Part shown: positions 6,804-59,800 of the stretch, in pieces
Layout: each line of letters opens with the position of its first letter
Position numbering within the stretch: position 1 is the stretch's first letter
Translations under genes and position numbers: made by a program
The notes under the pieces: model-generated
Databases searched by the model: none
The model's input: only the letters and a program-made list of their open reading frames with translations
Told to the model about the DNA's origin: nothing
NCBI GenBank assembly: GCA_963678705.1
Contig: OY783218.1
Location: 12,782,152 to 12,846,151 of the forward strand
Length of the DNA: 64,000 bases
Origin: Panorpa germanica
Taxonomy: Eukaryota; Arthropoda; Insecta; Mecoptera; Panorpidae
Direction: 5' to 3'

Positions 6804-7003
6804 NNNNNNNNNNNNNNNNNNNNNNNNNNNNNNNNNNNNNNNNNNNNNNNNNNNNNNNNNNNNNNNNNNNNNNNNNNNNNNNNNNNNNNNNNNNNNNNNN
6901 NNNNNNNNNNNNNNNNNNNNNNNNNNNNNNNNNNNNNNNNNNNNNNNNNNNNNNNNNNNNNNNNNNNNNNNNNNNNNNNNNNNNNNNNNNNNNNNNNNNN
7001 NNN
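6804..7003. other. Assembly gap of 200 N
   Basis: A run of exactly 200 N, which looks like a scaffolding placeholder, so the true distance is unknown. The right flank (7004-7160) is strongly pyrimidine-rich. Any open frame read through this gap is an artefact. Confidence 0.98.
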
Positions 7004-19260: not shown

Positions 19261-19666
19261 CGAGTGTTTTGTGCAAATCATCACTTGATAACTAGTTATG
19301 TAATCATAAACAATTTTAAAATACATTTTATGATAACACTTTATCACAAGCACAAACATTTATTTTTATCGAATCCATTTTACAAATGCGGAACAACAAA
19401 CTGATGTTTTGTATAATTCTCAATAATTAGGAACGATTAAATTTTAACAATTGATACATAGCTTAGCACGCACGCCGGAAAAAAATGTAAACACATGTGA
19501 TGTTAAATTCACATTTTTCCACGTGGTTTTTTCCGCTGTGCGAAGTTTCTTTTATTAGATTCTTTATTTACATAGAAATATAAAAAAAGAGAAGATTGCA
19601 GTAATTTGGGCGTAAAAACAACGTGGCACAATTAATTAATTGATTTCATTTTTATCGACAGATAAA

Positions 19667-20623
19667 ATGGCAAAGAAGAATCCTATTCTGTACCACGTGG
19701 AGTTGAGTCCTCCATGCCGTCTGGTTGTCCTAACTGCCAAAGCAATGAATCTTCCAATTGACATCAAATTAGTTGACTATATCAATGGAGAAAACAAAAC
19801 TCCTGAATTCCTGAAGGTAAGACCTCAAATAACCGAAGAAACTAATTTCAGAAAAAATATTTGGGACTAAATTTAATATTTTTGCAGATGAATCCTCAAC
19901 ATACTGTACCAACAATGGATGATAACGGGTTCTACATTTGGGACAGGTAAGAAATCAAACACAATACAATTACTAGCTTGCTACAAGCTAATTTCAAGAC
20001 TTGTTACGTTACTTTTAGCCATGCAATTGCTACTTACCTAATTAATCAGCACGGACCAAAAGATTTCGAGTGGTACCCAAGTTGCCCAAAGAAAAGGGCA
20101 CAAATCGATCAAAAGCTGCATTTTGAGTCAGCCAATCTATTTTTCCGTTTAAGGAGCTTACTGGTGAGTTTTTACATATCTATGCAAGCTTAACATTTCC
20201 ATAACATATTTAGATCCTTACATTATTTAATTATTCTGCAGGAACCCGTTCTGTACCACGGCGCACAAACATTCAGCGTTGCCGCTATTGGAAAAATTAT
20301 CGAAAGCTACGATTTCTTAGAAGTTTTCCTTGAGAAATCTCAATATCTTGTTGGTGATTCTTTGACTTTAGCGGATATTAGCTGTGGTACCACAATGACG
20401 GCGTTGGAAGTGGTAGTTCCCCTACCGAAAGAAATGTAACATTATATTTTTATAACTTGTTCGTAATTTGAATATTTCTTTAAATTTTAATTGTGTTAAT
20501 AATTTCAGCTACCCAAAGACCTACGCTTGGCTAGAAAGACTAAAGGCACGACCTGATTTCAAGGAAATTAACCAACCTGGAGTAAACATATTTAGAAATT
20601 TTGTTGTCAGCCAAATGAAATAA
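19667..20623 (+). CDS. Glutathione S-transferase, delta/epsilon type (gene 1)
   Basis: Exons 19,667-19,816, 19,888-19,946, 20,019-20,163, 20,242-20,435 and 20,509-20,623 give 220 residues, the usual length for insect cytosolic GSTs. The N-terminal thioredoxin-like domain has the catalytic serine in LSPPCR (Ser14). Its glutathione site includes NPQHTVPT (His55, cis-Pro58) and Asp69-Ser70. The C-terminal helical domain has DQKLHFES and the N-capping/hydrophobic-staple segment LTLADIS. The enzyme should conjugate glutathione to electrophiles in the cytosol. LHF(D/E)S after RAQIDQ favours the epsilon class over delta. Every splice site is GT-AG. A poly(A) signal AATAAA follows at 20,702. It is the most diverged member of the array and begins MAKKNP like gene 5, whereas genes 2-4 begin MSKQKP. 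Confidence 0.93.
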
Positions 20624-21180
20624 AATGTGAAAAGCTAATTTAAAATCTGAATCTAAAACCAAATTATTAAAATTTTGATCAATATTTTGTTCCTTTTTAT
20701 TAATAAAGTACATTAAAAAATAATATAACATAGATATAATTAATTTATGATCATAGCGATGCAGCCATTCCTTCAGCTTTCATCACCTTTAAGAATTCTT
20801 TCTATTTGCAATACCCATTTTTGCAAGATCTTCCTCCACTTTTCTTATCATCTCCAACGAGATCTTTCTCGCACTAAAACTGTAATATGACGTAAAACAC
20901 AAAACATAGATATTACCTTACATTCATGTAATACTTCACTTATACAAAACCTAGTTATGTTTAATCTATTTTAAAATACTTTAATCCATAAAAAGACATT
21001 CATTACAAAAATTCGAACCAATTACTGAATGACATTCATGTGTCAGTTTTTACTGAATCATTCAACTTAAATTCAATCTCAAAATGACTCATCAAGGTTG
21101 CTGAAAAGATCCATGGCATCCATCTCCCCACATCCCTTCCCAAGCAACAGATCCTTTAAGTTAGATCGCTGTGGTGTTAA
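20624..21180. other. Intergenic DNA between GST genes 1 and 2
   Basis: Contains the 3' end of gene 1. A block at about 21,000-21,125 recurs upstream of gene 3 (about 23,085-23,192) and partly upstream of gene 4 (about 24,685-24,735). In the gene 2 copy the block contains TGACTCA (21,084-21,090), an AP-1-like site, which is altered to TGACTCT in the gene 3 copy. Confidence 0.5.
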
Positions 21181-21206
21181 GATCAGTTCAATTTGAACGT
21201 TCCAAC
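21181..21206 (+). promoter_or_regulatory. Conserved initiator region of GST gene 2
   Basis: GATCAGTTCAATTTGAACGT is the gene 2 version of a sequence shared with genes 3 and 4. It holds a TCAGTT initiator, no nearby TATA box, and a following leader of about 75 nt ending AAACAAAATG. The placement of the start site is inferred from this conservation and the arthropod initiator consensus. Confidence 0.5.
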
Positions 21207-21261
21207 ATAGTGGTAGTTTAAACACAGTATTGTGATAATTTTAATTTGAAAATTAAACAAA

Positions 21262-22439
21262 ATGTCAAAGCAGAAACCGATTTTATATCATCTGCCTCTA
21301 AGCGGTCCATCCAGGGTGGCTGTGTTAACCGCCAGGGCTCTGAATCTTCCAATAGAGATCAAAGAAGTTGACTTTATGAATGGTGGACACCTAACACCTG
21401 AATTTATCAAGGTTCGTGTGTTAATTTAAAATGTCGATCGACTTGAGAATGTAGATGAATATTCATTATTAAATTACTAACTGCAGATGAACCCTCTTCA
21501 TGCTGTGCCAACGTTGGACGACAATGGATTCTACGTTGCGGATAGGTAATTTATACCTATAACTAATATTTTTATCTTATCTTATACCTCAAGAATATCT
21601 GTTTCAATTTCAATGTCAAAGATGCAAAAACTGCGGAACTTATGTGACCTACAAATAGTTTTTATTTGAAGCTGTGATCTTATGAATTATGCTTATAATT
21701 ACGAGTTGTTGATAATAGTCGAGACATGTTGAATTTTGGGTTAATTGTTAAAAATTAATTGATTAAGTAGTTTGTTTCTTGTTTTAGTCACGCTATTGCG
21801 ACGTACTTAATCAATCAGTACGGGCCAAAAGATTTCGAGTGGTACCCCAGTTGCCCGAAGAAAAGGGCCCAGATTGATCAGAAACTGCATTTTGATTCTT
21901 CTGTCCTTTATTTACATTTTAGAAACTTAATTGTAAGTATTTATACGAGTATATAAACACAAAAATAACATTTATGTTCAATTATGGTCAAACAGTTCAA
22001 TGGAAATTAAAAAATTAATCAAAATTAATAAGAATTTTAAATTTAGATGCCTCTTCTATGGGAGCCCCCAAAAGAAGGATCAGTTATGTCCCTTCCGACA
22101 GTTGGAAAACTGATAGAAAGCTACGAGATTCTGGAAGCTTTTCTGCAAAATTCTAACTACCTAGTAGGCGATTGTGTCACTCTGGCGGATATCTCTTGTG
22201 GGGTCATGGCTACCGCAATAGAATTGGTAGTGCCACTACTGAAAGAATGGTACTAAATTTATTACTTGTTATTAAATGCAATATAATATTTTATATATAT
22301 AATTATTGTTTTTGATAATTTCAGTTACCCTAAGACCTACGCCTGGTTAGATAAACTGAAGGCGCGTCCAGATTTCAAGGAAATTAACAAACCACAAATT
22401 GATATATACCGCCAGATGATTATAAGCACATTTAAATAA
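21262..22439 (+). CDS. Glutathione S-transferase, delta/epsilon type (gene 2)
   Basis: Exons 21,262-21,411, 21,487-21,545, 21,788-21,932, 22,047-22,249 and 22,325-22,439 encode 223 residues with the same splice phases as gene 1. Ser14 lies in LSGPSR, where other copies have LSPPSR or similar, so the residue after the catalytic serine is Gly rather than Pro. NPLHAVPT and the DSHAI segment form the glutathione site. The C-terminal domain has [12 protein letters not shown] and VTLADIS. The first donor is a weak GTTCGT, shared with gene 3 (GTTCGC). Intron 2 is about 240 bp and closely similar to that of gene 3, so these two are the most recent duplicates. A poly(A) signal lies at 22,532. Expected role is cytosolic detoxification. 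Confidence 0.93.
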
Positions 22440-22820
22440 AAATGAAATTGTTTTTTTTTTTAATGTAACCCATATCACATCCAAATAATGTTTAACGTTA
22501 TTAATTTTATAAAATAAGTAATAAAATGTATAATAAAGTTAAAAATTAAACCCAGTTCTTTACCACTAGTGTTACTTCCAACCTTTTCTGGTGACATTTT
22601 AAAGTGAGTTTACACTCGATCAATCGTATCATAAAATGTAAACTTACAAATTAGTCGTCATCTTGATGGCGACACAGCCATTCCAGAGACTTGTACTCCT
22701 TTAAGACAATTCTCTATTCATTCCTATTGGGTTTTTATTATTCCTTTACAGCTATTTTAAAATCTTTTAATCCTTAAATGGAATTCCTAAAATGTGCTAA
22801 TCCTTTTTCTTATATATTAT

Positions 22821-22910
22821 TTCTCGGGCTTCCTAGGCACGTAGCCTTTTATCGCCACCAAAAATGTTCTGCTTCTTCTTATACTTTATATCCCGACAAC
22901 AAGAATGATC
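22821..22910 (-). repeat. Dispersed repeat family A, inverted copy 2
   Basis: The reverse complement is nearly identical to 25,413-25,500 in the intron of GST gene 4. It lies between GST genes 2 and 3. The similarity is higher than to the 8,738 copy, so insertion is more recent or the two copies have exchanged sequence. Confidence 0.75.
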
Positions 22911-23212
22911 TATTCATGGCTACTGCTTTTATAAAATTCGGTTTCTTAATGAAAAGGCTGTTTTAACAGGAGTCATAATCCTTAAATATGTTACTAATGA
23001 ACAAAGAAATAGATCTATTTTTAAAAAAAGCAGTTCAGCATGTTAAGTATAAAAAAATGAGATAGTTTCAAGAAAAATACGAACCAATTACTAAATGACT
23101 GTCATTTATATTTTTTACTAAATCATTCAACTTAAATTCAATCTCATAATGACTCTTCAAGGTTGCTGAAATGATTCATGTCATCCTCCTAGCTTAACTT
23201 AGAGATACTATG

Positions 23213-23223
23213 CCCCCCCCCCC
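23213..23223. repeat. Poly(C) run of 11
   Basis: A homopolymer of C about 45 bp upstream of the GST gene 3 initiator. The length may be unreliable in the assembly. Confidence 0.8.
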
Positions 23224-23266
23224 ACACAACACACTCAAACTTTCATTTATACCAGGTCGGTGTGTT

Positions 23267-23300
23267 GTTCAGTTCAGTTTCAACGTTCGAGCACCGCGGT
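23267..23300 (+). promoter_or_regulatory. Conserved initiator region of GST gene 3
   Basis: GTTCAGTTCAGTTTCAACGT carries two overlapping TTCAGTT initiators. The downstream leader (CGCGGTAGTTTAAGC and on to AAACAAAATG) matches those of genes 2 and 4 closely. Confidence 0.5.
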
Positions 23301-23347
23301 AGTTTAAGCACAGTACAGTGATAATAATTATTTAAAAATTAAACAAA

Positions 23348-24468
23348 ATGTCAAAGCAGAAACCGATTTTACATCATCTGGCTCTAAGTCCTCCTTCCAG
23401 AGTGGTTGTGTTCACTGCCAGGGCTCTGAATCTTCCAATAGAGATTAAAGAAATTGACTTTATGAATGGTGGTCACCTGACACCGGAATTTATCAAGGTT
23501 CGCGTGTTATTTTAAAATGTCGATCAACTAAATAATGTAGTATGGATATTAAAAAATAACTTATTGCAGATGAATCCCCTTCATGCTGCCCCAACGTTGG
23601 ACGACAATGGATTCTACGTTGCTGATAGGTAAGTCATACCTATAACTAATATATTTATCTTATCTTATACCTCAAGAGTATCTGTTCCAATTTCAATGTC
23701 AACGATCCAAAAACTATGGAACTTATGTGACCTACAAATATTTTTTATTTGAAGCTGTGATAATTACGAGTAGTAGATAATAGTCGAGATATGTTGAATT
23801 TTGGGTTTGGTTGTTAAAAATTAATTGATTAAGCGGTTTGTTTCTTGTTTTAGTCACGCTATTGCGACGTACTTAATTAATCAGTACGGGCCAAAAGATT
23901 TTGAGTGGTACCCCAGTTGCCCGAAGAAAAGAGCCCAGATTGATCAGAAACTGCATTTTGATTCTTCTGTTCTTTATTACCATTTCAGAAACTTAATTGT
24001 AAGTATTTATATATATAAACACAAACGTAAGAATTATGTAGTAGATATGTTTAAGACTAATAATAATTTTAAATGTAGGTACCCATTCTATGGGAGCCCC
24101 CAAAAACAGGACCATTAATGCCACTTGCATCACTTGGAAAACTAATAGAAAGCTACGAGTTCCTGGAAGCTTTTCTGCAGAATTCTGACTATCTAGTTGG
24201 AGATTGTGTCACTCTGGCGGATATCTCTTGTGGAGTCATGGCTACCGCAATAGAATTGGTAGTGCCACTACTGAAAGAATGGTACAAAATTATTACATGG
24301 TATTAAATATAATATAATATTTTAGAAATTTAATTTATTGTTTGAAATTTCAGTTATCCGAAGACGTACGCCTGGTTAGATAGACTAAAGGCGCGTGCAG
24401 ACTTCAAGGAAATCAACCAACCACAAATTGATATTTACCGCCAAATGATTTATAGCACATTTAAATAA
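23348..24468 (+). CDS. Glutathione S-transferase, delta/epsilon type (gene 3)
   Basis: Exons 23,348-23,497, 23,570-23,628, 23,854-23,998, 24,079-24,281 and 24,354-24,468 encode 223 residues. Ser14 sits in LSPPSR. The glutathione-site loop reads NPLHAAPT: the residue before cis-Pro58 is Ala57 instead of the Val seen in genes 1, 2, 4 and 5, and that residue's backbone normally contacts the glutathione cysteinyl. Position 9 is His (ILHHL) where the others have Tyr. The C-terminal domain is intact with [11 protein letters not shown] and VTLADIS. Exon 3 and intron 2 are almost the same as in gene 2. A poly(A) signal AATAAA is at 24,492. The gene is intact but its substrate-site changes suggest a shifted activity. 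Confidence 0.92.
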
Positions 24469-24770
24469 AAATGAAATTGTTAATAGATTATAATAAAACA
24501 CTTTCTACATTCATATATTATTTGAAGTGATTTAATTTATTATAAACTAAATGTGGTATTAGTTAATAATTGCACAAAATGTAGCTTAGATATTAGAAAT
24601 AGAAAATGGTATTATTTGAATATATACAACGACATGAACGCATTATTAGATAATTGTTTTCGCCATTCAATTTAGTTAGATTAAATAAAAACTCATAATG
24701 GTTCTAGGTTATTGAAATGGTCAATGTCATCCTGCTAATCATGAGATAGTCCCTACTTGCGCAATATTTA

Positions 24771-24778
24771 TGACGTCA
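24771..24778. promoter_or_regulatory. Palindromic TGACGTCA upstream of GST gene 4
   Basis: A perfect CRE/ATF octamer about 46 bp upstream of the predicted gene 4 initiator. I see no equivalent immediately upstream of genes 2 or 3. Confidence 0.4.
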
Positions 24779-24816
24779 TCGTAGTATTTCGTTTTAGTAC
24801 ACCGGTGTATTGTTGA

Positions 24817-24850
24817 GTTCAGTTCAGCTTGAACGTTCGAACGTCGCGGT
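24817..24850 (+). promoter_or_regulatory. Conserved initiator region of GST gene 4
   Basis: GTTCAGTTCAGCTTGAACGT followed by TCGAACGTCGCGGTAG matches the gene 3 and gene 2 regions. The leader again ends AAACAAAATG. Confidence 0.5.
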
Positions 24851-24896
24851 AGTTAAAAACAGTACTGTGATAATTGTTATTTGTAAATTAAACAAA

Positions 24897-26023
24897 ATGT
24901 CAAAGCAGAAACCCATTTTATATCACATACCTATAAGCCCTCCTTCCAGGGTGGCTGTGATGACCGCCAGAGCTCTGAATCTTCCGATAGAAATCAAAGA
25001 AGTAGACTTTATGAATGGAGAACAACTTACTCCCGAATTTCTTAAGGTACGTGTATTATTTTTTTAATTCGATCAACTAAATAATAAAATAAGATTATGT
25101 ATTAGAGAATTACCTGTTCTAGATGAACCCTCTTCATACTGTGCCAACTCTGGATGATAACGGATTCTACGTTGCAGACAGGTAAGTCCAAATTTTATAG
25201 TCAACATTTTTAAAACTATTCAAATTCAATTTGCGAATTATTTTTAGTCACGCTGTTGCGACATATATGATCAACCAGTACGGGCCAAAAGATTTCGACT
25301 GGTACCCCAGTTGCCCGAAGAAAAGAGCCCAGATTGATCAGAAACTGCATTTTGATTCTTATCTTTATTGCCATTATAAAAACCTAATTGTAAGTATAGA
25401 AACGTTTTAAAAATCATTCTTGTTGTCTGGATATAAAGTATAAGAAGAAACAGAACAATATTAGAGGCGATAAAAGGCTACGTGCCTAGGAAGCCCGAGA
25501 AATTATATATAAAAAAAAACGTTTTGAAAACAAACGTAACATTTATATAGCAAACAAGACTGTATTTAATGGAAGTGAAATAAAAAATACCGACGTTTTT
25601 CGCATAAATTATTAATAACAACATTAAATTTAGATGCCTATTTTGTGGATGCCTCCTAAAGAAGGGCCATTCATGAACCTTACAACACTTGGAAAGCTAA
25701 TAGAAAGCTACCAGTTCCTGGAAGCTTTTCTGCAGGATTCTGACTACCTAGTAGGTGACAATGTCACTCTGGCGGACATCTCTTGTGGGGCTATGGTTTC
25801 TATAATAGAATTACTAGTGCCACTGCTGAAAGAATGGTAAAGATTATTACTTGTTATAAACCATAATATAACATTTATAATTTATATAATTTTTTTTTAT
25901 AATTTCAGTTATCCCAAGACGTGGGCCTGGTTGGATAAACTAAAGGCACGTCCAGACTTTAAAGAAATTAACCAACCTAATGTTGATATTTACCGCCAAA
26001 TGATTTATAGCAAATTAAAATAA
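24897..26023 (+). CDS. Glutathione S-transferase, delta/epsilon type (gene 4)
   Basis: Exons 24,897-25,046, 25,123-25,181, 25,248-25,389, 25,634-25,836 and 25,909-26,023 encode 222 residues. Ser14 is in ISPPSR, the glutathione loop is NPLHTVPT, and Asp-Ser precede HAVATYM. Exon 3 is one codon shorter than in its paralogues and diverges at its end (HFDSYLYCHY rather than [10 protein letters not shown]), which changes the first helices of the C-terminal domain near the substrate pocket. Intron 3 holds a dispersed repeat (family A). The start was chosen because MSKQKP matches genes 2 and 3 and the leader is conserved. A cytosolic conjugating enzyme is expected. Confidence 0.92.
25413..25500 (+). 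repeat. Dispersed repeat family A, copy 3, in GST gene 4 intron 3
   Basis: Direct copy of the block at 8,738-8,822 and inverted relative to 22,821-22,910. Landmarks are GGCGATAAAAGGCTACGTG and CTAGGAAGCCCGAGA. The paralogous introns lack it, so it inserted after the gene duplication. Confidence 0.75.
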
Positions 26024-26682
26024 GAAACATGAAACTGTTATGATTTAAAAAATATAAATCTTGAAAACTATATTTATGCTATAATTTCAATATTAAGAAA
26101 TGCCCAAGTATCATCTACTGGTCTACTAATCCATTTAAAACATTCCAATCTAGCAATCCTTTCGCATAGAAAGAAATTCTAAGACAAATTTAATGATTTA
26201 TACTGCTACATTTTTTTAATTGTGCTCTAACTTCCAAAACGGCTACAATTTCATAGAAACACATAAGAGTAAACAAAATAGTCCACTTCTTTATCATTAC
26301 AATGATCTAAACAAAATCACAATCGGTAATCAAATAACGGAGATATTTACATTTTTATCACTCTTTCGCATGTGTTTAACAATTTTATTTGTACACCTGT
26401 TGCTATCTCACTCGCACTCATGCGTTCAATGTTTAAACACTCATCACTTCTTAATACATTCGACGATTTATTAAAGAACTTTTTGTTTATTGTTGAATAT
26501 TTCCCCCTCCCCTCACTTCGTGAGATAACACTGCTATACAAGAACAGACTTGTTCGAGCTGACGATTTGACCCTGACGAACCGAGTTAGCATTAGCTCAG
26601 TTTGGCATCTGCCTTTGTCCAAAGCGTACACTCTCGCGTACAGTAATATTTAATATTTTAAAGAATTAGTTCACCTAATAAA

Positions 26683-27787
26683 ATGGCGAAAAAGAATCCT
26701 ATTTTATATCATATTTCGGGAAGCCCCCCATCCAGAGTTGCTGTAATGACCGCAAGGGCTCTGAACCTTCCAATAGATATTAAAGAAGTTGACTTTTTGT
26801 GGAGAACACATGACTCCGGAATTTCTGAAGGTACGTTTGTTTACTTTTTGTGACAATCAAATATAACTCTTAGAGCATAATTCACGCAACATTCGCCGGT
26901 CGTTAAACATACAGCCTCTCTCAGTGACATAATATAATCGAAAGAGCATGTCATGCTTACGCACAACTGATGTGAAACTTTCTGTTTCAATTCAATTTAT
27001 TATTGTAGATGAATCCTCAACACTGTGTGCCGACTCTGGATGATAACGGATTTTACATTTCGGACAGGTATAGCAACTAAAAACTTAACTAGATAATTGA
27101 ATTTGTAGACCGTAATACAATTTTGAATTATTTTTAGTCACGCTGTTGCAACGTATATGATCAACCAGTACGGGCCAAAAGATTTCGAGTGGTACCCCAG
27201 TTGCCCGAAGAAAAGAGCCCAGATTGACCAGAAATTGCATTTTGATTCTTCTGTCCTTTATTTTCGTATGAGAAGTTTAATTGTAAGTATTTATATACAT
27301 ACTCGTACATGAAAATAATTGTTATAGATTTATCTGCAAGGTGTCCCGAAAAGCTTGAGATTTGAGATTTTTGTAACTTATAGTTTTAATTTAGGAACCT
27401 ATTCTATGGAATCCTCCCACTGCAGAAGGAGCGACAACGATGAGTGTCCCAGGAATAGGAAAGGTGATTGAGAGCTACGATTTCCTGGAAGCTTTTCTAC
27501 AGAATTCTGACTACCTGGTAGGCGACTCTGTGACTCTCGCGGACATCTCTTGCGGGACCATAGTTACTACGATGGAATTAGTAGTGCCACTACCGAAAGA
27601 ATTGTATGTATCATTATTATTTATTAAGTGTATCATAAATTCGCAAAGTATAACTTATTTTTATATTTTTAGCTACCCCAAGACCTACGCATGGCTGGAA
27701 AGATTAAAAGCGCGTCCAGACTTCAAAGAAATCAACCAGCCTGGTGTCGATTTGTACCGACAGTTTATTATTCAGAAATTCAAGTAG
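26683..27787 (+). pseudogene. Glutathione S-transferase (gene 5) with a 2-nt frameshift in exon 1
   Basis: Exons 26,683-26,830, 27,009-27,067, 27,138-27,282, 27,395-27,603 and 27,673-27,787 align with the four intact paralogues. Exon 1 is 148 nt instead of 150. The reading frame is lost at about 26,800, right after VDFL, where the others have an Asn-Gly pair. Normal splicing would then give a stop in exon 2. Everything else is intact: Ser14 in [41 protein letters not shown], all GT-AG sites and the stop. A full-length product would be about 225 residues. The undamaged remainder suggests a recent lesion, a segregating allele or a sequencing error rather than an old pseudogene. A TCAGTT initiator candidate lies near 26,598. 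Confidence 0.85.
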
Positions 27788-28435
27788 TTAATTGAATTAA
27801 CATTGTTAATTAAAATGTATATTGCTTTTTATATATTCTCTATTTTTATTTTTAATTGAAGCAAAATGTAAACCAAGTCCGCCATCTATTAGATAATAGT
27901 AATAACAAAGGTGTAAAGATTTCTATCGCGCCTAAGTTCAGAACCACATTGAAAATTTAGAATAAAATACGCCTGGTCAGCATGCTACCACTCTCTCACT
28001 TTAAAGGCATAACATTTTTTACTTTTCAATCTTTCTATAATTTTTTTTATACTTATTTAGCTTAAGGAGATCCTTTGTAAAAATTAAATATTATTTTCTT
28101 TAGTATTTTCTATATGTTTTAAGATCATGTTAATTAAAATAAAAGAAGTAACTTTCGATTTGATATCTATATTTTCATGTTATTTGAAATTAAATATTTA
28201 CAATATAAAAATATATTTTAAAAACAAATATTTTGTTTATTTTTCTATGTAAGCTTGGTAATTATTATTTAAGCTAATTATAATACGTTTATTATATCTT
28301 AATAGTGTATCTGAAGTTTATATTTTATAAATAAAAAAAGTAAAATGAATTTCAAGTGTATTTATTTTCATATATTTGTAAGTCTTACTTTTTAAAATTC
28401 ATTGCAGAATCGTCAAGAATCGTAAACTTTCTTTT
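27788..28435. other. AT-rich spacer between the GST cluster and the satellite block
   Basis: Very AT-rich with no supported gene or repeat unit. It includes the 3' flank of GST gene 5. Confidence 0.45.
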
Positions 28436-28668
28436 AATATTTCAACGAAAGAAGACTATAATCTTGTTAAAAATGATGAAAAAGTTCAGTTTTAGATTTT
28501 AAAAAATCATAATTATTCTGTTAATTTTTCAACGAAAGAAGGTTATACTCTTCTTAAAAATGATGAAAAAGTTTAGTTTTAGATTTAAAAAAAATCATAA
28601 ATATTCTGTTAATTTTTCAACGAAAGAAGACTATAATCTTGTTAAAAATGATGAAAAGGTTCAGTTTT
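28436..28668 (+). repeat. 87-bp tandem repeat, left part (about 2.7 copies)
   Basis: The anchor CAACGAAAG occurs at 28,443, 28,530 and 28,618, a spacing of 87-88 bp. The array resumes with the same unit at 32,618, so the large element between them interrupts it. The unit contains GAAGACTATAATCTTNTTAAAAATGATGAAA, which resembles the hairpin region of the 304-bp unit nearby. Confidence 0.85.
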
Positions 28669-28671
28669 AGA

Positions 28672-29663
28672 CTTTACAATTTTTTTAAAACTCATGGACT
28701 TTTTGTTTTTAATTTTTTTTTTTCGATTTCTTGAAATATTTTGATGCAGTTATGTTCGTTAGGCTTTAAAATAAAGAACTGCTTCATTACTTTTTAAATA
28801 ACTAAGCGTGTCTGACTTGTACGCGACTTTTTTAAAATTCATGGACTTCTTTTTCTAATTTTTTTTTCTTGATTTCTTGAAATGTTTTGATGCAGTTACG
28901 TTCGTTAGGCTTTAAAATAAAGAACTGCTTCATTACTTTTTAAATAACTAAGCGTGTCTGGCTTTTATGCAACTTTTTTAAAACTCATGGACTTTTTGTT
29001 TTTAATTTTTTTTCTTGATTTCTTAAAATATTTTGATGCAGTTACGTTCGTTAGGCTTTAAAATAAAGAACTGTTTCATTACTTTTTAAATATCTACGCG
29101 TGTCTGGCTTTTATACAACTTTTTCAAAATTCATGGACATTTTTTTTCTAAAATTTTTTTTTGATTTCTTGAAATATTTTGATGCAGTTATGTTCGTTAG
29201 GCTTTAAAATAAAGAACTGTTTCATTACTTTTTAAATATCTACGCGTGTCTGGCTTTTATACACCTTTTTCAAAATTCATGGACATTTTTTTTCTAAATT
29301 TTTTTTTTGATTTCTTGAAATATTTTGATGCAGTTATGTTCGTTAGGCTTTAAAATAAAGAACTGCTTCATTACTTTATAAATATCTACGCGTGTCTGGC
29401 TTTTATGCAATTTTTTTAAAACTCATGGACTTTTTCTTTTTAATTTTTTTTTTTCGATTTCTTGAAATATTTTGATGCAGTTATGTTCGTTAGGCTTTAA
29501 AATAAAGAACTGCTTCATTACTTTTTAAATATCTACGCGTGTCTGGCTTTTATACAACTTTTTCAAAATTCATGGACATTTTTTTTCTAAAATTTTTTTT
29601 TGATTTCTTGAAATATTTTGATGCAGTTATGTTCCTTAGGCTTTAAAATAAAGAACTGTTCAA
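28672..29663 (+). repeat. 146-bp tandem array, left arm (7 units)
   Basis: CATGGAC anchors at 28,693, 28,840, 28,986, 29,132, 29,278, 29,424 and 29,571 show a period of 146-147 bp. Each unit contains GATGCAGTTATGTTCGTTAGG and CGTGTCTGGCTTTTAT-like words. Units differ by few substitutions, so the array is young or homogenised. Confidence 0.92.
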
Positions 29664-29699
29664 TTTAAATTAAAATATTTGTCCTTTACTGGCTTTAGA

Positions 29700-31640
29700 G
29701 TAAACAATAAAAAAGTAAAAATAAATATTTTAAAACGCTGTTTATTCGAAAACGGTAAGAGATAATTAAAAATGGTTTTCAATTTTGGAATCAGCGTAAA
29801 AAACTACGTTAGAAAAGATGTATCATGTGCCAAAATAGAAAAAGTGTTTTTTGTGAAAAGTAAGAAGAGTATAGTCTTCTTACTTTTCTTAAAAATTGAT
29901 GAAAGAAATTTGTTGATTTTTTAATGGTTTTTAATGTAGTTTTGAATGCTGATTTCAAATCTGGAATTTATTTTTATGTAAGTCTTTTGGTTTGCGAGAT
30001 ATAAGCATTTTAAATTAAAAAATAGTCAAAAACTTTACACACAGATTATTCGAAAACTATAACAGATAATTAAAAATGGTTTTCAATTTTGGAATCAGCG
30101 TAAAAAACTACGTTGGAAAAGATGTATCATGTGCCAAAATAGAAAAAGTGTTTTTTGTGAAAAGTAAGAAGAGTATAGTCTTCTTACTTTTCTTAAAAAT
30201 TGATGAAAGAAATTTGTTGATTTTTTAATGGTTTTTAATGTAGTTTTGAATGCTGATTTCAAATCTGGAATTCATTTTTATGTAAGTCTTTTGGTTTGCG
30301 AGATATAAGCATTTTAAATTAAAAAATAGTCAAAAACTTTACACACAGATTATTCGAAAACTATAACAGATAGTTAAAAATGGACTTCAATTTTGGAATC
30401 AGCGTAAAAAACTACGTTAGAAAAGATGTATCATGTGCCAAAATAGAAAAAGTGTTTTTTGTGAAAAGTAAGAAGAGTATAGTCTTCTTACTTTTCTTAA
30501 AAATTGATGAAAGAAATTTGTTGATTTTTTAATGGTTTTTAATGTAGTTTTGAATGCTGATTTCAAATCTGGAATTCATTTTTATGTAAGTCTTTTGGTA
30601 TGCGAGATATAAGCATTTTAAATTAAAAAATAGTCAAAAACTTTACACACAGATTATTCGAAAACTATAACAGATAATTAAAAATGGACTTCAATTTTGG
30701 AATCAGCGTAAAAAACTACGTTAGAAAAGATGTATCATGTGCCAAAATAGAAAAAGTGTTTTTTGTGAAAAGTAAGAAGAGTATAGTCTTCTTACTTTTC
30801 TTAAAAATTGATGAAAGAAATTTGTTGATTTTTTAATGGTTTTTAATGTAGTTTTGAATGCTGATTTCAAATCTGGAATTCATTTTTATGTAAGTCTTTT
30901 GGTTTGCGAGATATAAGCATTTTAAATTAAAAAATAGTCAAAAACTTTACACACAGATTATTCGAAAACTATAACAGATAGTTAAAAATGGACTTCAATT
31001 TTGGAATCAGCGTAAAAAACTACGTTAGAAAAGATGTATCATGTGCCAAAATAGAAAAAGTGTTTTTTGTGAAAAGTAAGAAGAGTATAGTCTTCTTACT
31101 TTTCTTAAAAATTGATGAAAGAAATTTGTTGATTTTTTAATGGTTTTTAATGTAGTTTTGAATGCTGATTTCAAATCTGGAATTCATTTTTATGTAAGTC
31201 TTTTGGTATGCGAGATATAAGCATTTTAAATTAAAAAATAGTCAAAAACTTTACACACAGATTATTCGAAAACTATAACAGATAATTAAAAATGGACTTC
31301 AATTTTGGAATCAGCGTAAAAAACTACGTTAGAAAAGATGTATCATGTGCCAAAATAGAAAAAGTGTTTTTTGTGAAAAGTAAGAAGAGTATAGTCTTCT
31401 TACTTTTCTTAAAAATTGATGAAAAAAATTTGTTGATTTTTTAATGGTTTTTAATGTAGTTTTGAATGCTGATTTCAAATCTGGAATTCATTTTTATGTA
31501 AGTCTTTTGGTTTGCGAGATATAAGCATTTTAAATTAAAAAATAGTCAAAAACTTTACACACAGATTATTCGAAAACTATAACAGATAATTAAAAATGGA
31601 CTTCAATTTTGGAATCAGCATAAAAAACTACGTCAGAAAA
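29700..31640 (+). repeat. 304-bp satellite array (about 6.4 units), each with a 14-bp hairpin
   Basis: GGAATCAGC anchors at 29,787, 30,091, 30,395, 30,699, 31,003, 31,307 and 31,611 are spaced exactly 304 bp. Units are nearly identical. Each carries GAAAAGTAAGAAGA, a 6-nt loop GTATAG, and the perfect complement TCTTCTTACTTTTC. The first and last units are partial. Confidence 0.95.
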
Positions 31641-31675
31641 CACAAATCATTTTTCAAAAATATAAATATTTTAGT

Positions 31676-32490
31676 TTTAGGAAAAAAGGTCCATGTATTT
31701 AAAAAAGGTCGCTTAAAAGCCAGATACGCGTAGATATTTAAAAAGTAATGCAGCAGTCCTTTATCTTAAAGCCTAAGGAACATAACTGCATCAAAATATT
31801 TTAAAGAATCAAGAAAAAAAAATTTAGAAAAAAAAGTCCATGAATTTTAAAAAAGTTGCATAAAAGCCAGACACGCTTAGTTATTTAAAAAGTAATGAAG
31901 CAGTTCTTTATTTTAAAGCCTAACGAACGTAACTGCATTAAAATATTTCAAGAAATCAAGAAAAAAAAATTAGAAAAAGAAGTCCATGAATTTTAAAAAA
32001 GTCGCGTAAAAGTCAGACACGCTTAGTTATTTAAAAAGTAATGAAGCAGTTATTTATTTTAAAGCCTAACGAACATAACTGCATCAAAATATTTCAAGAA
32101 ATCGAAAAAAAAAAATTAAAAACAAAAAGTCCATGAGTTTTAAAAAAATTGCATAAAAGCCAGACACGCGTAGATATTTAAAAAGTAATGAAGCAGTTCC
32201 TTATTTTAAAGCCTAACGAACGTAACTGCATCAAAATATTTCAAGAAATCAAGAAAAAAAATTTAGAAAAAGAAGTCCATGAATTTTAAAAAAGTCGCGT
32301 AAAAGTCAGACACGCTTAGTTATTTAAAAAGTAATGAAGCAGTTATTTATTTTAAAGCCTAACGAACATAACTGCATCAAAATATTTCATGGAATCAAAA
32401 AAATATTTTTAGAAAAAAAGTCCATAAACTTTAAAAAAGTTGCATAAAAGCCAGATGCGCGTAGATATTTTAAATTTAATGAAACAGTTT
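31676..32490 (-). repeat. 146-bp tandem array, right arm, inverted (6 units)
   Basis: GTCCATG or GTCCATA anchors at 31,689, 31,836, 31,982, 32,129, 32,275 and 32,420 (spacing 145-147 bp). The units are the reverse complement of those at 28,672-29,663. Confidence 0.92.
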
Positions 32491-32617
32491 ATCAATTTAA
32501 CCTGCAGCGTATATATCTCAATTAAAAAATTACCCCATTTAAATTAAATATATATTATTAGAAAAAATCAAGCACATAACTCACACTCATTGTGTTGCAA
32601 CGGGTCGAACAGCTAGT

Positions 32618-32760
32618 TCTGTTAATTTTTCAACGAAAGAAGGTTATACTCTTCTTAAAAATGATGAAAAAGTTTAGTTTTAGATTTAAAAAAATCAAAA
32701 ATATTCTGTTAATTTTTCAACGAAAGAAGACTATATAACCTTCTTAAAAATGATTAGAAT
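32618..32760 (+). repeat. 87-bp tandem repeat, right part
   Basis: CAACGAAAG anchors at 32,631 and 32,718. It begins immediately after the CAGCTAGT terminus and continues the unit found left of 28,668. Confidence 0.8.
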
Positions 32761-46900: not shown

Positions 46901-49900
46901 TGAATGAAATGATAAACACAATATATAGTTGTTCTTAGAAGTAATGAGCGAAACTGTTGAATGGAATGACAACTGTTAACTTTCAACTAGTAACTAGTAA
47001 TACTAACTCCATTTTCATTGCGTGACCTTCGTTTGACTTCTAATATTTGTGTCGTGATAGAATTTATATTCAAACTTCTATCAAAATACGAGCAATTATT
47101 AATAATATAGATAACAATTTATTAACTGGATGTACAATCACTTTTTCGAATACTTTTTGAAATGTATAGCTTGTTAACTCATTTTTAGGGGTCGTTCTTT
47201 TAATTTTTAATTGAAATATAGGTTAATATACATTGGTATTCCTTTTTTCTTAACATCAGAATTTGGTCATTCTACTACCACTATTCCAACAACACTATTC
47301 TACTCTTTCAAAACAAGCGAATTAATTCTTTTTTAAGGGAAATAAATTTTTCCCTTAAGCCTCATTCCCATTCACTGTTTTGATATTTAATTTACTGTTT
47401 TTATTTAATATTTTAATCCAGATTTAAGGTTCTCGTTTAAGCATTCCTTTTCACATTTATGTTTTAATTTAAGTTTAGTTAATTTAGTTGGTGCATATAA
47501 ATTTTGACAGTTCGACAGAATTGTATGTGAAATAATTAAAATTGATATTTTTAATAACAATTAGTAATAGAAATTGTTTTCTCTTCCATTTTTTTTTTTA
47601 AAAGTGACATTAAACTTCTTTTAAAAGTAAATCCTACTGCACTTTGAAAGATTGTCACATTTTGGAGATTATAGTTTTTCTTAATTTAATATTTTTAATT
47701 TAAAACATTGGACCTTGTAAGGTTAAAAAAAAACTAAGAAAACTTAAAAAATAAATTTAATTAAAAATGGTACTGTGAATGACCATTTTTGATGACCAAC
47801 TGTTCTTTAAAAACTAATACTTTATCAACACACGAAATTTAGAGATTTCCATTGTTTTGAAAATTATAAATTATTGTAACTCGTAAACTAATTGTCGAAA
47901 TGTCATGAAATTTTTTTAATAGTATCTATATCTCATCCTACGAACTTATTGAGTCATGAATATGATTGTCTGCATTGTATTGTTTAGCGATAGTAGTAAT
48001 ATCTTAGATTTTTCATTTTATTGAGATTATATATTATTACATTATTATATATTGCGATTTTATCATAGTACATTGGTATCTTCAAACAGTGCCAACCTAA
48101 ATTTTAATCAGTGTTGTAAAATTAGTTCTTGGACTTGAATCTGTATTACTCATTTGTCAGCTCGTATCTCTACATAGGTCAACAATCAATACAACGATCC
48201 GACGATAGATCCAATTCATCAGATTACACTTGGACATTTTTAATTGTTAATTACTGTGAGTCGAAAGACCGTTTCTATATATTACAGTAAGATCGCTCTC
48301 ACACTGTAGCTTACTATAAGGTTCTTGAATATGAGCGGTGTTTCAACAAGAGGTGTTATTTTAAATCAACAGAAGATGAGATATTTTCATGAAAAGTGGT
48401 GATATTTTTATTTTAATCTAAAGTACAAACTCTGAGGTTAGTAATACAACACAATATCTGCCAAATGTCACCGCAATGATGGTTAAAATTGTGCGAAATC
48501 TAAAATAACAGCTCTTGGTGAAATACCCTATACATCTGACATCGATTTTCCTCCATCGTCCATCGAGGACTTCAAGTTTTTCTGAATTAGTACACTTTAT
48601 TATGAGATGAAACGATGGTAAAGTACAGGGTGTCCAGAAAGGGTATCGGGTATTTGTTTTCGCGCCATATTCGAAACGGGGCGTCTAAAGGGTGCGGGGA
48701 GGGGTTCATGGCGTCCGCCATTCTGTGGAGTTTTAGTCACGATGGAACAGTACTCGGGGATGCATCGCGCATTTTGCGTACGAGCGTATTATCGTAATGG
48801 TGATTCAAAGTTAACAACGTTAACTGTAAGGTACAATAAAGACCTAGGAGGCTCAAATTTTAATATGAGATAGTCTAGACACTCCTTTATAAAATTTATA
48901 TAACGTTTTTATTAGGAGCTTTAAGGGGGCCACACTAGAGCCATGCATTCAATGGGTTGCAGAAGATAAGTTACATTCAACAATGACATAGCATGCTTAC
49001 AACGTTAACTAAAGACCTAGGAGGCGAAATTTTTTGGTCCCAGAGTTGCAGGAGTTTGCAGGTTTCAACTCAAGAACGTGGTTCCAGCAAGATGGGGCCA
49101 CTTGCCATACCTCAAATAACTCAATGGAAGTTGTTAACGAGTTATTCCCTAATAAAGTCATTTCGCGAAGGGGTAACATCAACTGGCCTCCCAGAAGCCC
49201 CGACCTTAGCCCGCTTGACTATTTTGCATGGGGATACCTTAAAAGTAAGGTTTATCAAAACAATCCGACGAATCTAACCCAGTTAAAGCAAAACATCAGG
49301 TCAGAAATGGCAGCAATATCGATAGCTATGTGTCAACGTGTTATCGCCAATCTTCGTTTCCGTTTAGAAGAGTGCCAGCAACGTAACGGTCATCATTTGG
49401 ATAACGTCATCTTTTCCAAATAATTCTCCAATTCATATGCTAATAATAAACAATAAACTTTTTTATTGCATACAAATAATTTTTGTTTCATTGAACTTAC
49501 AAATACCCGATACCCTTTCTGGACACCGTGTACAATAATGCTTTGCGTGAAACTAACATAGTCATGTTTCAGAGTAAGATTAATTATTTAAGATGACAAG
49601 TAATTAATAGTTTCTATAAAAAGTTTAGAAAAACGTCAGCATTATAACTGTGATAGAAAGCCATGACCTGCATCATCTTTGAAAGGTCCATTACAGGAGG
49701 GTATCTACTAAAACTGAAAACGATTCAAATTTTCGTAAACTATATTAGCTAATGCACAAGAATTTCCAGTTATCGTATCGTAGTACTGATTACAATTTGA
49801 GTAAGATTTTTCGAAGCACGTTCTAAGCCACAGGTAGAATTGAGTACGTCCAGGAAAAGAAATTTCGTATTTTAAAGCTTAAGGTTATTTAGTGGGATAA

Positions 49901-52414
49901 TGCATTTTTGCTTCTGAAATTGTCGCCTTCGTTTTTGATCCAAAATGCCTTCGAAAGGGATACTCTCGAGTATTAGAATATCACATTCGAATCGTATACG
50001 CTTCGGAACCAAATTGTCTGTATGGCGATGTTGACTTATGGGTTACAACTATGGGGTACATCAGCTAGCTCAAACTTTGAGATCTTATAAAGATTCCAAT
50101 CCAAATATTACGCAGGATTATAGATCACGATCTTGTCATACCTACAGAGGAACAAGAAATTAAAACTCGAACGGAGAAATATAAAGATCATGTGATGGAC
50201 CACCCAAATACATTAGTGATTAACCTAATGGAAGGCAGGAGTACCTTCAGCAGACTGAAATAATATATAACAAATAGAATTGTATTTCTAAACCAATTCT
50301 TAAATATCTATATGATAGATCACAATAAAAAAAAATTCTTTCCAAATTAAAGTAGATATGTAAAGTTATGTGGAAGAGTGGGAAAGGGGGGTGTTCTGGT
50401 AGTAATAACTAGGGCTTGAATTTATATGCATACTTTAGGAAAAATACGTATTCATCTCGTTTTACATATTTGTATTCAATTGTTTTATTTTAGGTGTTAA
50501 CGACTCCATTTTACTTTCATGTTTTCTTTTTTACTAGTATGTTTCACATTTTTGTTTTTCTACTTGCATATTTCCTAAAAATAAGTGCATACTGGTCGCA
50601 CATATATTCTCTAAACGAAATAAAATATTCTTCTGTAAATTATTTAAGGTAACTTTCAGTTTTCTTTCAAGATAACAGCAACACGGTGTAGGAAATGTGA
50701 CTTCTGTATTTTGATTAGTAGCGCCTGCGCCTGAAACACTCACAACTCCCTCACACTGTCTTATATCTCCGTGAACTGTTTTTTGTTTGCTCTGCGACAT
50801 TCTGCCATGAATGCTGATTGGTTAAATATTAACACATAATCATTAAGTAGCCGCTAATTAAATTAAATATATCGCGTCTCTGTATGAGTTAAGTAAACAA
50901 GTGAACTTTCTACATAAACACTGGAACACTGGCGATATTTCAGTAGAGTCAGACCTGAAATTTTGAAGGACATTTCGGACGTAGCCTTAGTGATAATTTA
51001 GATTATCGAAATATATATGTTTTATTTTTTTTATTTTTTAAAATGTTATATTTACGCATATATATAGAAACTAACTACAGTTGCACGAGTACCTGTTTCG
51101 ATTCTGATATTTTCTGAAACAGTGGTGGCGTGTTTTTATGTAGCTATAAGATTTCATAAGTAACAGCGATTTTTTAAAAATATTTTCTGATTCTCAGTCA
51201 ATTTTATATGGAGAAGGTTCAAAATAGCGTAAAACGAGTTATTTTGCTTAAATACGTCGTTTTAGCACTATTTCAATTTGATGTGATAAAAACTGTAGAA
51301 GTTATGAGAATTTCTTCAGGTTTTTTTTTGGATTTTTGCTCATAACTCGAATACGCTTCAATAACAATGTGAACTATAGGCCTAAATCTATGTAAGGAGG
51401 CCTTATACACACATATCTAGTACATTGTTTTTATGTAGCTATAAGATTTCACAAGTAATACTGCTCGTGAATTACCTCAAAAAAATACAACCTAATATTT
51501 CTACAAATTTTTCCAACTTTAGAGATATTTTATAATCTTAAAAATATAAGTCATACTATTCAGACACTAAACCCCCCCCCCCCCTTCCACACCACTCACT
51601 GTTTTTGAACAAAGAAGACAATTTTTTCACTGGCTTAAAAAAATATTTTTAAAAAAGTATAAAGCTATATTTTAATTTTTATATAATTTTAGTTAACGTC
51701 TCCTTATTTCCGATGCTAAGACCTATCACCTCACACTTTTGTTGGCAGTTTTTATGGTGTCGTGGCTTTATATATATAGGGCACACCACTACCTAATAAG
51801 TTTTATGATTTTAGTAATCACTTAATCAATAAAAACTTTGACAACAACCAAACCCTAAAAATGTAGCTATGGGATTGAATCCGAAGACACAGGCTGTCTG
51901 GTACGAAGCGTACGCTCCCGGCCCCTGCGCAGTGTTTTAACGTAAGACAATTCTTCTATGTAATACATTTCTATTATATTTTTTCATACGTACAGACATA
52001 TATATATATCTTAATATATATAAATTACGTGTCACTGTGTTGTCCGCGATGGACTCCTAAACTACTTAACCGATTTTAATCAAATTTGTACACCGTGTGC
52101 AGTTTGATCCAACTTGAAAGATAGGATAGCTTACATCTCAATTTATGATTGCAATATTATCTTATTGCAAATTATTTGTCTATTAATTATCTGTATATGA
52201 CATATGACATCTGGCGACGATGATGGCGACATCTGTTGAGTAGATTGAGTAAATATTCTGTTGACTAGATTGAGTAAATATTCAATAGATGGCGCTATGT
52301 AATGTTAGACACAGCAACGCGTGGCCGGGACAGCTAGTATATATATATATATACGTTATCAGTAATATTTTATCTGATGCTATTTAGACAATCTCCCATA
52401 AAACACCGACTAAT

Positions 52415-59065: not shown

Positions 59066-59423
59066 ATATCTTAATATATATAAATTACGTGTCACTGTGT
59101 TGTCCGCTATGGACTCCTAAACTACTTAACCGATTTTAATGAAATTTGTACACCGTGTGCAGTTTGACCCAACTTGAAAGATAGGATAGCTTACATCTCA
59201 ATTTATTTATCTTATTGCTAATTATTTGTCTATTAATTATCTGTATATGACATATGACATCGGGCGACGATGATGGCGACATCTGTTGACTAGATTGAGT
59301 AAATATTCTGTTGAGTAAATCGAAATCTGTTGACTAGATTGAGTAAATATTCAATAGATGGCGCTATGTAATGTAATATGACAAAAACGTTAGTCACAGC
59401 AACGCGTGGCCGGGACAGCTAGT
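59066..59423 (+). mobile_element. Non-autonomous Helentron-like element, copy 2
   Basis: About 358 bp. Same ends as copy 1. Relative to copy 1 it lacks about 14 bp near 59,210 and has an extra stretch near 59,310 where the internal TAGATTGAGTAAAT repeat is expanded. The high similarity indicates a recently active family. Confidence 0.85.
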
Positions 59424-59800
59424 TATTCTATAAATAATTATTATATTATTTTTTTACATAGTATACTATATTTATATTATGAAATTTTATAAGATATTTT
59501 ATTTTCAGATTAGAAAATGTATACATTGTATAAGTTTGGCAGGTAAAGCCGCGTGCAGATATGCAATCTTATTTTTATGGAGTGTTCTCACTGGTTCATG
59601 TTACAAACTGTGTCAGTTAGGCCTAGTCAAATACTGCCCCCAAATAAAATTTTGAAATTTTGAATTTTTTTTATTAATAATATACTTAATTATTCTAGAA
59701 TACGGAATATGAACTTTCTCCAAAGTTCCCTACCGGACCCCCAAATTTCTTCAACCCCCTATTTTTCAATTTTTGAATTTCTAATTTTTGAGAAATGTCA

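Follow-up and report, generated by a model that had tools for sequence, protein, structure and literature searches.

What kind of element carries two long satellite arrays in opposite orientation around a third, and how does such a structure come to lie inside another tandem array? The question is raised by a 64,000-nucleotide stretch of the Panorpa germanica genome, referred to here as the window (assembly GCA_963678705.1, contig OY783218.1, labelled C15, positions 12782152-12846151), in which a piece of an 87-bp tandem array is followed by an array of 146-bp units on the forward strand, an array of 304-bp units, an array of the 146-bp units on the reverse strand, a tail and a further piece of the 87-bp array. 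The 146-bp arrays are called the arms and the 304-bp array the core. The initial annotation described this block as a giant foldback with a Helentron-like 3' end and placed it at 28436-32760. Considering its recurrent layout, its sharp 3' end, the TC 5' ends shared between copies and an uninterrupted counterpart of one target site, the block is very probably, on sequence criteria, a copy lacking its 5' part of a non-autonomous Helitron family (A/TC...CTAG/T, the slashes marking the element boundaries), in which the satellite foldback forms the 3' half.

Recurrence across the genome

A search of the genome (464 Mb) with two core units gave 1124 candidates, 40 of which were scored; these represent 40 separate loci, the window included, a number that is a lower bound because 40 of the 1124 candidates were scored. 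Twenty-one of the 39 loci outside the window were examined (L009-L028 and L031), together with four reached through other parts of the element (L030, L033, L034 and L035), giving a set of 26 loci: 25 fetched and the window copy. Sequence was examined outward from the left arm over 1.6-4.1 kb, depending on the locus. The recurrence for which the initial annotation had proposed a genome search was found: the arm-core-arm order with inverted arms was present in all 24 other core-bearing loci (L009-L028, L030, L031, L033 and L035) which with the window copy makes 25 of the 25 examined loci that hold a core, spread over eight contigs; the same 3' end was found at 13 distinct sites. The inverted satellite array spans about 2.4-4.6 kb per copy. 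In 23 copies the core is 1.3-6.3 units long, and its length is a whole number plus 0.2-0.4 of a unit except in L025 (1.9); it therefore seems that whole units are gained and lost while the edges of the array stay fixed. Focusing on these edges, the stretch around the left spacer (29656-29800) is conserved at 98.6-99.3% and that around the right spacer (31601-31690) at 100% in the four copies compared (L010, L014, L026 and L019).

One locus found by its tail, L034 (C7:9419900-9425000), has both A/TC and CTAG/T, a portion of the 5' module, a single 146-bp array and the tail, with no core and no second arm; it may be an ancestor-like form or a deletion product. Four older-looking copies (L018, L020, L024 and L025) have another flank in common, GCCGCT..TCAGGCGCAATG or its complement, adjoining an arm, which may represent a 5' module from an earlier stage of the family. 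Exact-pattern scans of viral contigs for relatives outside this genome gave no match.

Termini, autonomous relative and target sites

The tail is about 130 bp long and stops sharply at CTAG. Among the tail matches scored in the genome (40 of 233 candidates), 26 are at least 94% identical and 14 are 80-82% identical. In all 20 tails retrieved with a pattern requiring CTAG, located at 13 distinct sites, the next base is T; as T makes up 36.1% of bases, this would occur by chance at 13 independent sites with a probability of about two in a million, the sites possibly being related. A deletion hid the tail of L028 from the pattern, and this copy also reads CTAG/T, while L024 has an altered tail, ..GTACTAG/T. 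Tails are present at both ends in L027 and L033.

At the other end, a stretch of 637 bp, made up of two units of about 306 bp, is common to many copies to the left of the foldback, together with up to 883 bp more, with differing cut points. A TC 5' end was located in five of the 26 loci (L010, L011, L014, L026 and L034) and is preceded by A in L010, L011, L026 and L034; the boundaries A/TC...CTAG/T are accordingly found in four of the five copies with both ends, and such copies lie on C21, C9 and C7. L010, L011 and L014 start with TCTTATATTATAATGTCCGAGGTG, and L026 and L034 start with variants of it. The first 24 bases of these three copies are identical to those of an autonomous element at C1:2465356-2472358, one of two autonomous copies inspected, which contains a 1489-amino-acid stop-to-stop frame with matches to Helitron_like_N (PF14214, E 6e-60) and PIF1 (PF05970, E 3e-61) and ends in AAAAGCTAG followed by T, similar in form to the foldback tail and different in sequence. 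Judged by sequence, the termini of the family are those of canonical Helitrons (5' TC, 3' CTAG, insertion between A and T). The rolling-circle character of the 3' end that the initial annotation had noted thus stands, while its assignment to Helentrons does not. Membership of the Helentron/HINE class was considered and rejected, the T-T target of that class being absent and A/TC...CTAG/T being present in four of five copies; subterminal inverted repeats were not searched for.

The genome carries a very heavy Helitron load: one 13-base 5' motif is present 7,846 times (3905 + 3941, versus 126 + 124 for the reversed control), and a Helitron_like_N profile search gave 893 Rep-domain candidates. 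Of these candidates 150 were scored, those listed all exceed the cut-off and many have long open frames; possible helper proteins are therefore plentiful. Many of the Helitron frames are exactly 1119 amino acids long, which suggests recent activity.

The copy L011 is complete (4132 bp), and an uninterrupted counterpart of its joined flanks lies beside it, identical in all 60 bases compared on the left and in eight of nine on the right before diverging. By this comparison, which concerns one copy only, L011 has no target-site duplication (TSD).

These termini also bear on the most durable of the alternatives, in which ordinary dispersed dyad satellites spread by segmental duplication and array exchange, with pieces of Helitrons attached by chance. 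The concentration of copies on some contigs (C4 with ten and C15 with nine of the 40 scored core loci), the flanks shared by several copies and their position in 87-bp arrays would all suit such an origin, and a macro-dyad satellite organization is known in Tribolium, according to excerpts of PMC13081366. However, the sharing of one 3' end by 13 distinct sites, each with T next to it, copies with both A/TC and CTAG/T on three contigs and the uninterrupted target counterpart of L011 make it quite unlikely.

The window copy and its insertion site

The element proper spans 28677-32616, with a tail ending in CAGCTAG followed by T (Table 1); the outer parts of the interval originally delimited, 28436-28676 and 32618-32760, are host array. 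The window block is the 3' part only of a longer element. The inverted 146-bp arms around a 304-bp satellite reported in the initial annotation were confirmed. Tandem Repeats Finder gave 146-bp units at 28675-29662 (6.8 copies, 92% matches) and 31676-32489 (5.6 copies, 87% matches), 304-bp units at 29742-31640 (6.2 copies, 98% matches) and 88-bp units at 28418-28676, and the two 146-bp arrays are complementary at, for example, 89% over 557 nt and 96% over 352 nt, with pairing of single units across the arms reaching 99% (L2 of the left arm with R4 of the right).

Table 1. Features of the block and of the adjoining host array (window coordinates).
Feature	Position	Strand	Remarks
87/88-bp host satellite array, left piece	28418..28676	+	3 units, variants A B A; outside element
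Left arm	28677..29695	+	7 units of 146 bp, last one degenerate
Left spacer, arm to core	29696..29741	+	About 80 bp if counted from last good unit at 29662
Core	29742..31659	+	6.3 units of 304 bp, every unit a degenerate palindrome
Right spacer	31660..31688	+	About 30 bp
Right arm	31676..32489	-	5.6 units, left-arm 146-bp repeat inverted
Helitron 3' terminal sequence (RTS)	32490..32616	+	Ends CTAG; T at 32617
RTS hairpin position	32585..32605	+	11 nt from end
87-bp host array, right piece	32618..32758	+	About 1.6 units, variants B A

The 304-bp unit has a self-complement score of 76, compared with 24.6 (sd 3.2) for dinucleotide shuffles, none of 200 of which reached 76, and the palindromy covers most of its length. 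The units of the core being degenerate palindromes themselves, there are two levels of dyad symmetry in the block. Folded as single-stranded DNA, 28677-32616 reaches -996.8 kcal/mol, compared with -310 to -342 kcal/mol for four mononucleotide shuffles, and of its 1562 pairs 715 are arm-arm and 686 core-core. A single 87-bp unit has no palindromy above that of shuffles (100/200). Common ancestry of the 87-, 146-, 304- and 306-bp units was also considered and is weak at best, the top cross score (304 versus 87 reversed) being matched by three of 200 shuffles. No stop-to-stop frame of at least 110 amino acids was found within 28-32.7 kb of the window, and no frame of more than 110 amino acids upstream of the foldback in L014 or L026.

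The 87-bp array resumes at 32618, as expected from the original description of an interrupted array, and the variants of its units, read by eye, run A B A, insert, B A, an alternation that fits a single interrupted array and not a duplicated one. About 20 bp of an 87-bp unit is missing at the left junction, and no word of eight or more bases that might represent a TSD is shared between 28640-28700 and 32440-32640. Arrays of the 87-bp unit are dispersed as satellites in their own right (C15, C12, C13, C2, C10, C18 and others), most of the matches listed being on C15 and C12. The insertion point of the tail in 87-like sequence is common to the window, L009 and L016, and a second point is common to L015, L019, L027 and L033; either target choice or common descent may account for these coincidences.

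The absence of a TSD at the window block is relevant to a further alternative, a cut-and-paste foldback transposon of the Tetris/Rehavkus type, with terminal inverted repeats (TIRs) and TSDs, lying by chance beside a Helitron end. Inverted termini made of tandem arrays are found in Tetris (PMC4079207) and, according to excerpts of PMC10218199, in Rehavkus-1_TC, and the tails at both ends of L027 and L033 resemble TIRs. However, the sharp end of most tail-bearing copies is the tail that follows the right arm, copies possessing both ends have unlike termini (TC..., ...CTAG) and the flanks beside the two tails of L033 are inverted, not direct, copies. This alternative is largely refuted, and we consider it highly unlikely. 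Of the foldback-type element originally proposed, the inverted arms made of tandem arrays remain, whereas the TIR/TSD class is contradicted by the missing TSD and the unlike ends.

A second Helitron fused to the 5' side

A second Helitron, X, which ends in GACGGGGGTAAAAGCTAG followed by T, is joined to the 5' side of several copies; its 3' end is whole in L026 and L031 and shortened in L014 and L010, while L030 has no X at the fusion point. L014 and L026 start at the TC of the X part. X is more divergent between L014 and L026 (91.9% identical) than the neighbouring 637 bp of the element (98.9% identical). In the simplest reading, transposition would have started at the 5' end of X, passed its 3' end and stopped at the foldback tail. 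The fusion is thus a candidate read-through composite that may itself have moved since. Read-through has been reported for Helraiser, for which the 5' end is required and the 3' end not strictly (excerpts of PMC4778049).

Probable recombination between the arms, core inversion and palindromes

The arms look active in recombination. The core is inverted in three of the 17 copies that can be oriented by one tail and a core (L010, L013 and L024). In L010 the inversion includes the two spacers (98.6% and 100%), and the 5' part and the tail are in place; the calls for L013 and L024 are based on the orientation of the core units alone. In 21 copies, with L017 and L027 left out, 30.3 of 352 units have their closest match in the opposing arm of their own copy, compared with 5.9 (sd 3.2, maximum 20.1 in 500) when the right arms are dealt randomly; including L017 and L027, the values are 44.5 of 393 and 6.5. 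The closest match of a further 87.7 units is within their own arm, and that of the remaining units, about 234, in a different copy.

Two loci are centred on palindromes. In L017 the 5'-side flank is present on both sides, mirrored over 2648 bp at 99.25% with 20 mismatches, and in L027 the tail-side flank is mirrored over 1723 bp at 98.8-98.9% with 15 mismatches, continuing in pieces of 92-95%. Ordinary relatives of both exist: L016 shares its 5' side with L017 (891 bp, 93.9%) and has an ordinary tail side, and L015 (3.7 kb, 93%) and L019 (337 bp, 98.8%) share their tail side with L027 and have an ordinary other side. L033 has two tails, yet its flanks mirror each other at about 70-76% only. 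In the flank comparison of the 26 loci, L016 and L022 have only 73% pieces away from the arms, and L034 and L035, with just 274 and 358 bases on the right, are weak tests for a mirrored flank. Read chimeras are known to arise at large inverted repeats, but an assembly artefact in which chimeric reads made the arms and palindromes is scarcely credible, given the arm-core-arm order at every core-bearing locus examined, the unit variants that differ between copies and the mismatches in the mirrored flanks of L017 and L027, where a read chimera should be near identical.

Returning to the Helitron family, rolling-circle transposition would move, or would have moved, its copies from A/TC to CTAG/T without duplication of the target, probably driven by the abundant Rep/helicase Helitrons of the genome. 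In single-stranded DNA, whether in a transposition intermediate, at a resected break or at a stalled fork, the inverted arms may anneal, and such annealing could exchange unit variants between the arms and flip the core, either during transposition or later in the chromosome. At a chromosomal break, the annealed arms could act as a primer for an inverted duplication in which one flank is mirrored around the core; fold-back or annealing between molecules could each mirror one flank in this way, as in L017 and L027.

Systems of both kinds are described in yeast, according to excerpts of the sources. Inverted repeats in single-stranded DNA rearrange by fold-back even when 30 kb apart, and heterology suppresses this only above 25% (PMC10164571), while inverted repeats with a 1-kb spacer give inverted dimers by annealing between molecules (PMC6103520); the products include fold-backs, inverted dimers and dicentric chromosomes. 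The annealing of inverted repeats, even distant or divergent ones, is the point of similarity. Unlike in yeast, the events proposed here are deduced from their outcome at two loci of an insect, where a mobile element lies at the centre of the mirror.

Weight of the evidence

Several observations weigh against the assignment of the block to a Helitron family, or against parts of the mechanism proposed for it. In the window copy the left arm directly adjoins the 87-bp array and the 5' end is absent, and 21 of the 26 loci, the window copy included, have no TC end within the distance examined beyond the left arm; six of the 26 have no tail. The base before the TC of L014 is T and not A, and the original 5' end of the family is uncertain, the 5' sides of L010, L014, L026 and L031 being fused to X. 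The RTS of the autonomous copy differs from the tail of the foldback family. The RTS hairpin is not more stable than expected: in L014, where an 8-bp stem ends 11 nt before the 3' end, 51 of 300 shuffles reach an energy as low, and in the window copy, where a base change prevents formation of the 8-bp stem, 151 of 300 do so. The uninterrupted counterpart of L011 spans just nine bases on the right, and for L010 no empty site was found with the joined flanks. As some insertion sites are common to several loci, locus duplication contributes too. Most units being closest to another copy, exchange between arms is a minority signal, and mirrored flanks of more than 1 kb occur in only two of the 26 loci, one for each side.

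Relation to known elements

The comparisons that follow refer to excerpts of the sources cited. Canonical non-autonomous Helitrons, with a mechanism as in Helraiser (PMC4778049), are similar to this family in their TC/CTAG ends, A/T target and lack of TSDs; the position of the hairpin 11 nt from the 3' end and the presence of a Rep/PIF1 autonomous relative in the genome may be further points of agreement. The insect Hel-2 (PMC4344730) likewise has TC/CTAG ends and contains internal tandem repeats. Unlike these elements, the present family has inverted satellite arrays around a palindromic satellite, its arms share variants, its core inverts and two of its loci are centred on palindromes. The Helentron-associated rolling-circle elements HINE, DINE-1 and Cg_HINE (PMC4067079 and PMC7492417) similarly carry and scatter short satellite arrays, but they have one central array, subterminal inverted repeats (subTIRs) and a TT or oligo-T target, whereas the present family has a third array between two inverted ones and an A/T target. 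Tetris (220-bp units; PMC4079207) and Rehavkus-1_TC (164-bp units; PMC10218199) share with this family the tandem-repeat inverted arms around a middle part and the variable number of units, but Tetris has TIRs with TSDs of 8-10 bp and Rehavkus has TIRs with TSDs of 9 bp (PMC6446971), in contrast to the unlike ends, with no TSD seen, found here.

Direct satellite arrays in Helitrons and tandem-array arms in foldback transposons are therefore each known, and within the literature searched both have not been described in one element. Among the PubMed Central (PMC) matches listed, judged by title and the start of the abstract, no Helitron whose satellite arms are inverted appears, in a scope that does not extend to most subscription journals or to Repbase; to that extent the novelty claimed in the initial annotation holds.

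Other features of the window

The sequence CAGCTAGT occurs five times in the window, compared with 0.9 expected, and none of 100 shuffles reached five. One such end, at 57149-57171, differs from the tail end of the block in two of 23 bases. A different repeat, with two copies that are 85% alike (52006-52371 and 59066-59452), ends in GGGACAGCTAGT. To the left of the block, 19660-27790 holds related sequences in tandem, for the most part about 67-89% alike. GST C-terminal domains are present in the last of these pieces, for which a chain named GH14654p is the sole PDB match at E 1e-10, and past the block a piece at 33.4-33.8 kb has a match below the cut-off to an ABC transporter. The open frame at 49013-49423, which we take to resemble a fragment of a mariner-type transposase, has no Pfam match. 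A run of 200 N at 6804-7003 is presumably an assembly gap.

Conclusions

In conclusion, the satellite foldback of Panorpa germanica most probably belongs to a family of non-autonomous Helitrons, in which it may have a function. As the initial annotation suggested, transcripts may possibly form double-stranded RNA and feed siRNA or satellite-RNA pathways. In a more speculative proposal, which we hold to be rather unlikely, the foldback would be a working part of the transposon: the arms would snap together in the single-stranded rolling-circle intermediate, where they would protect the strand or prime its copying, keep the arms alike and flip the core, and the element, once inserted, would seed palindromic duplications. 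If this is true, a rolling-circle element would both plant satellite arrays and build chromosomal palindromes. One genome here offers a natural series of copies, with the core in either orientation, one or two arms, one or two tails and palindromic or plain flanks, in which two questions can be tested: the handling of long inverted repeats by rolling-circle elements, and the origin of palindromes and of the dyad organization of satellites.

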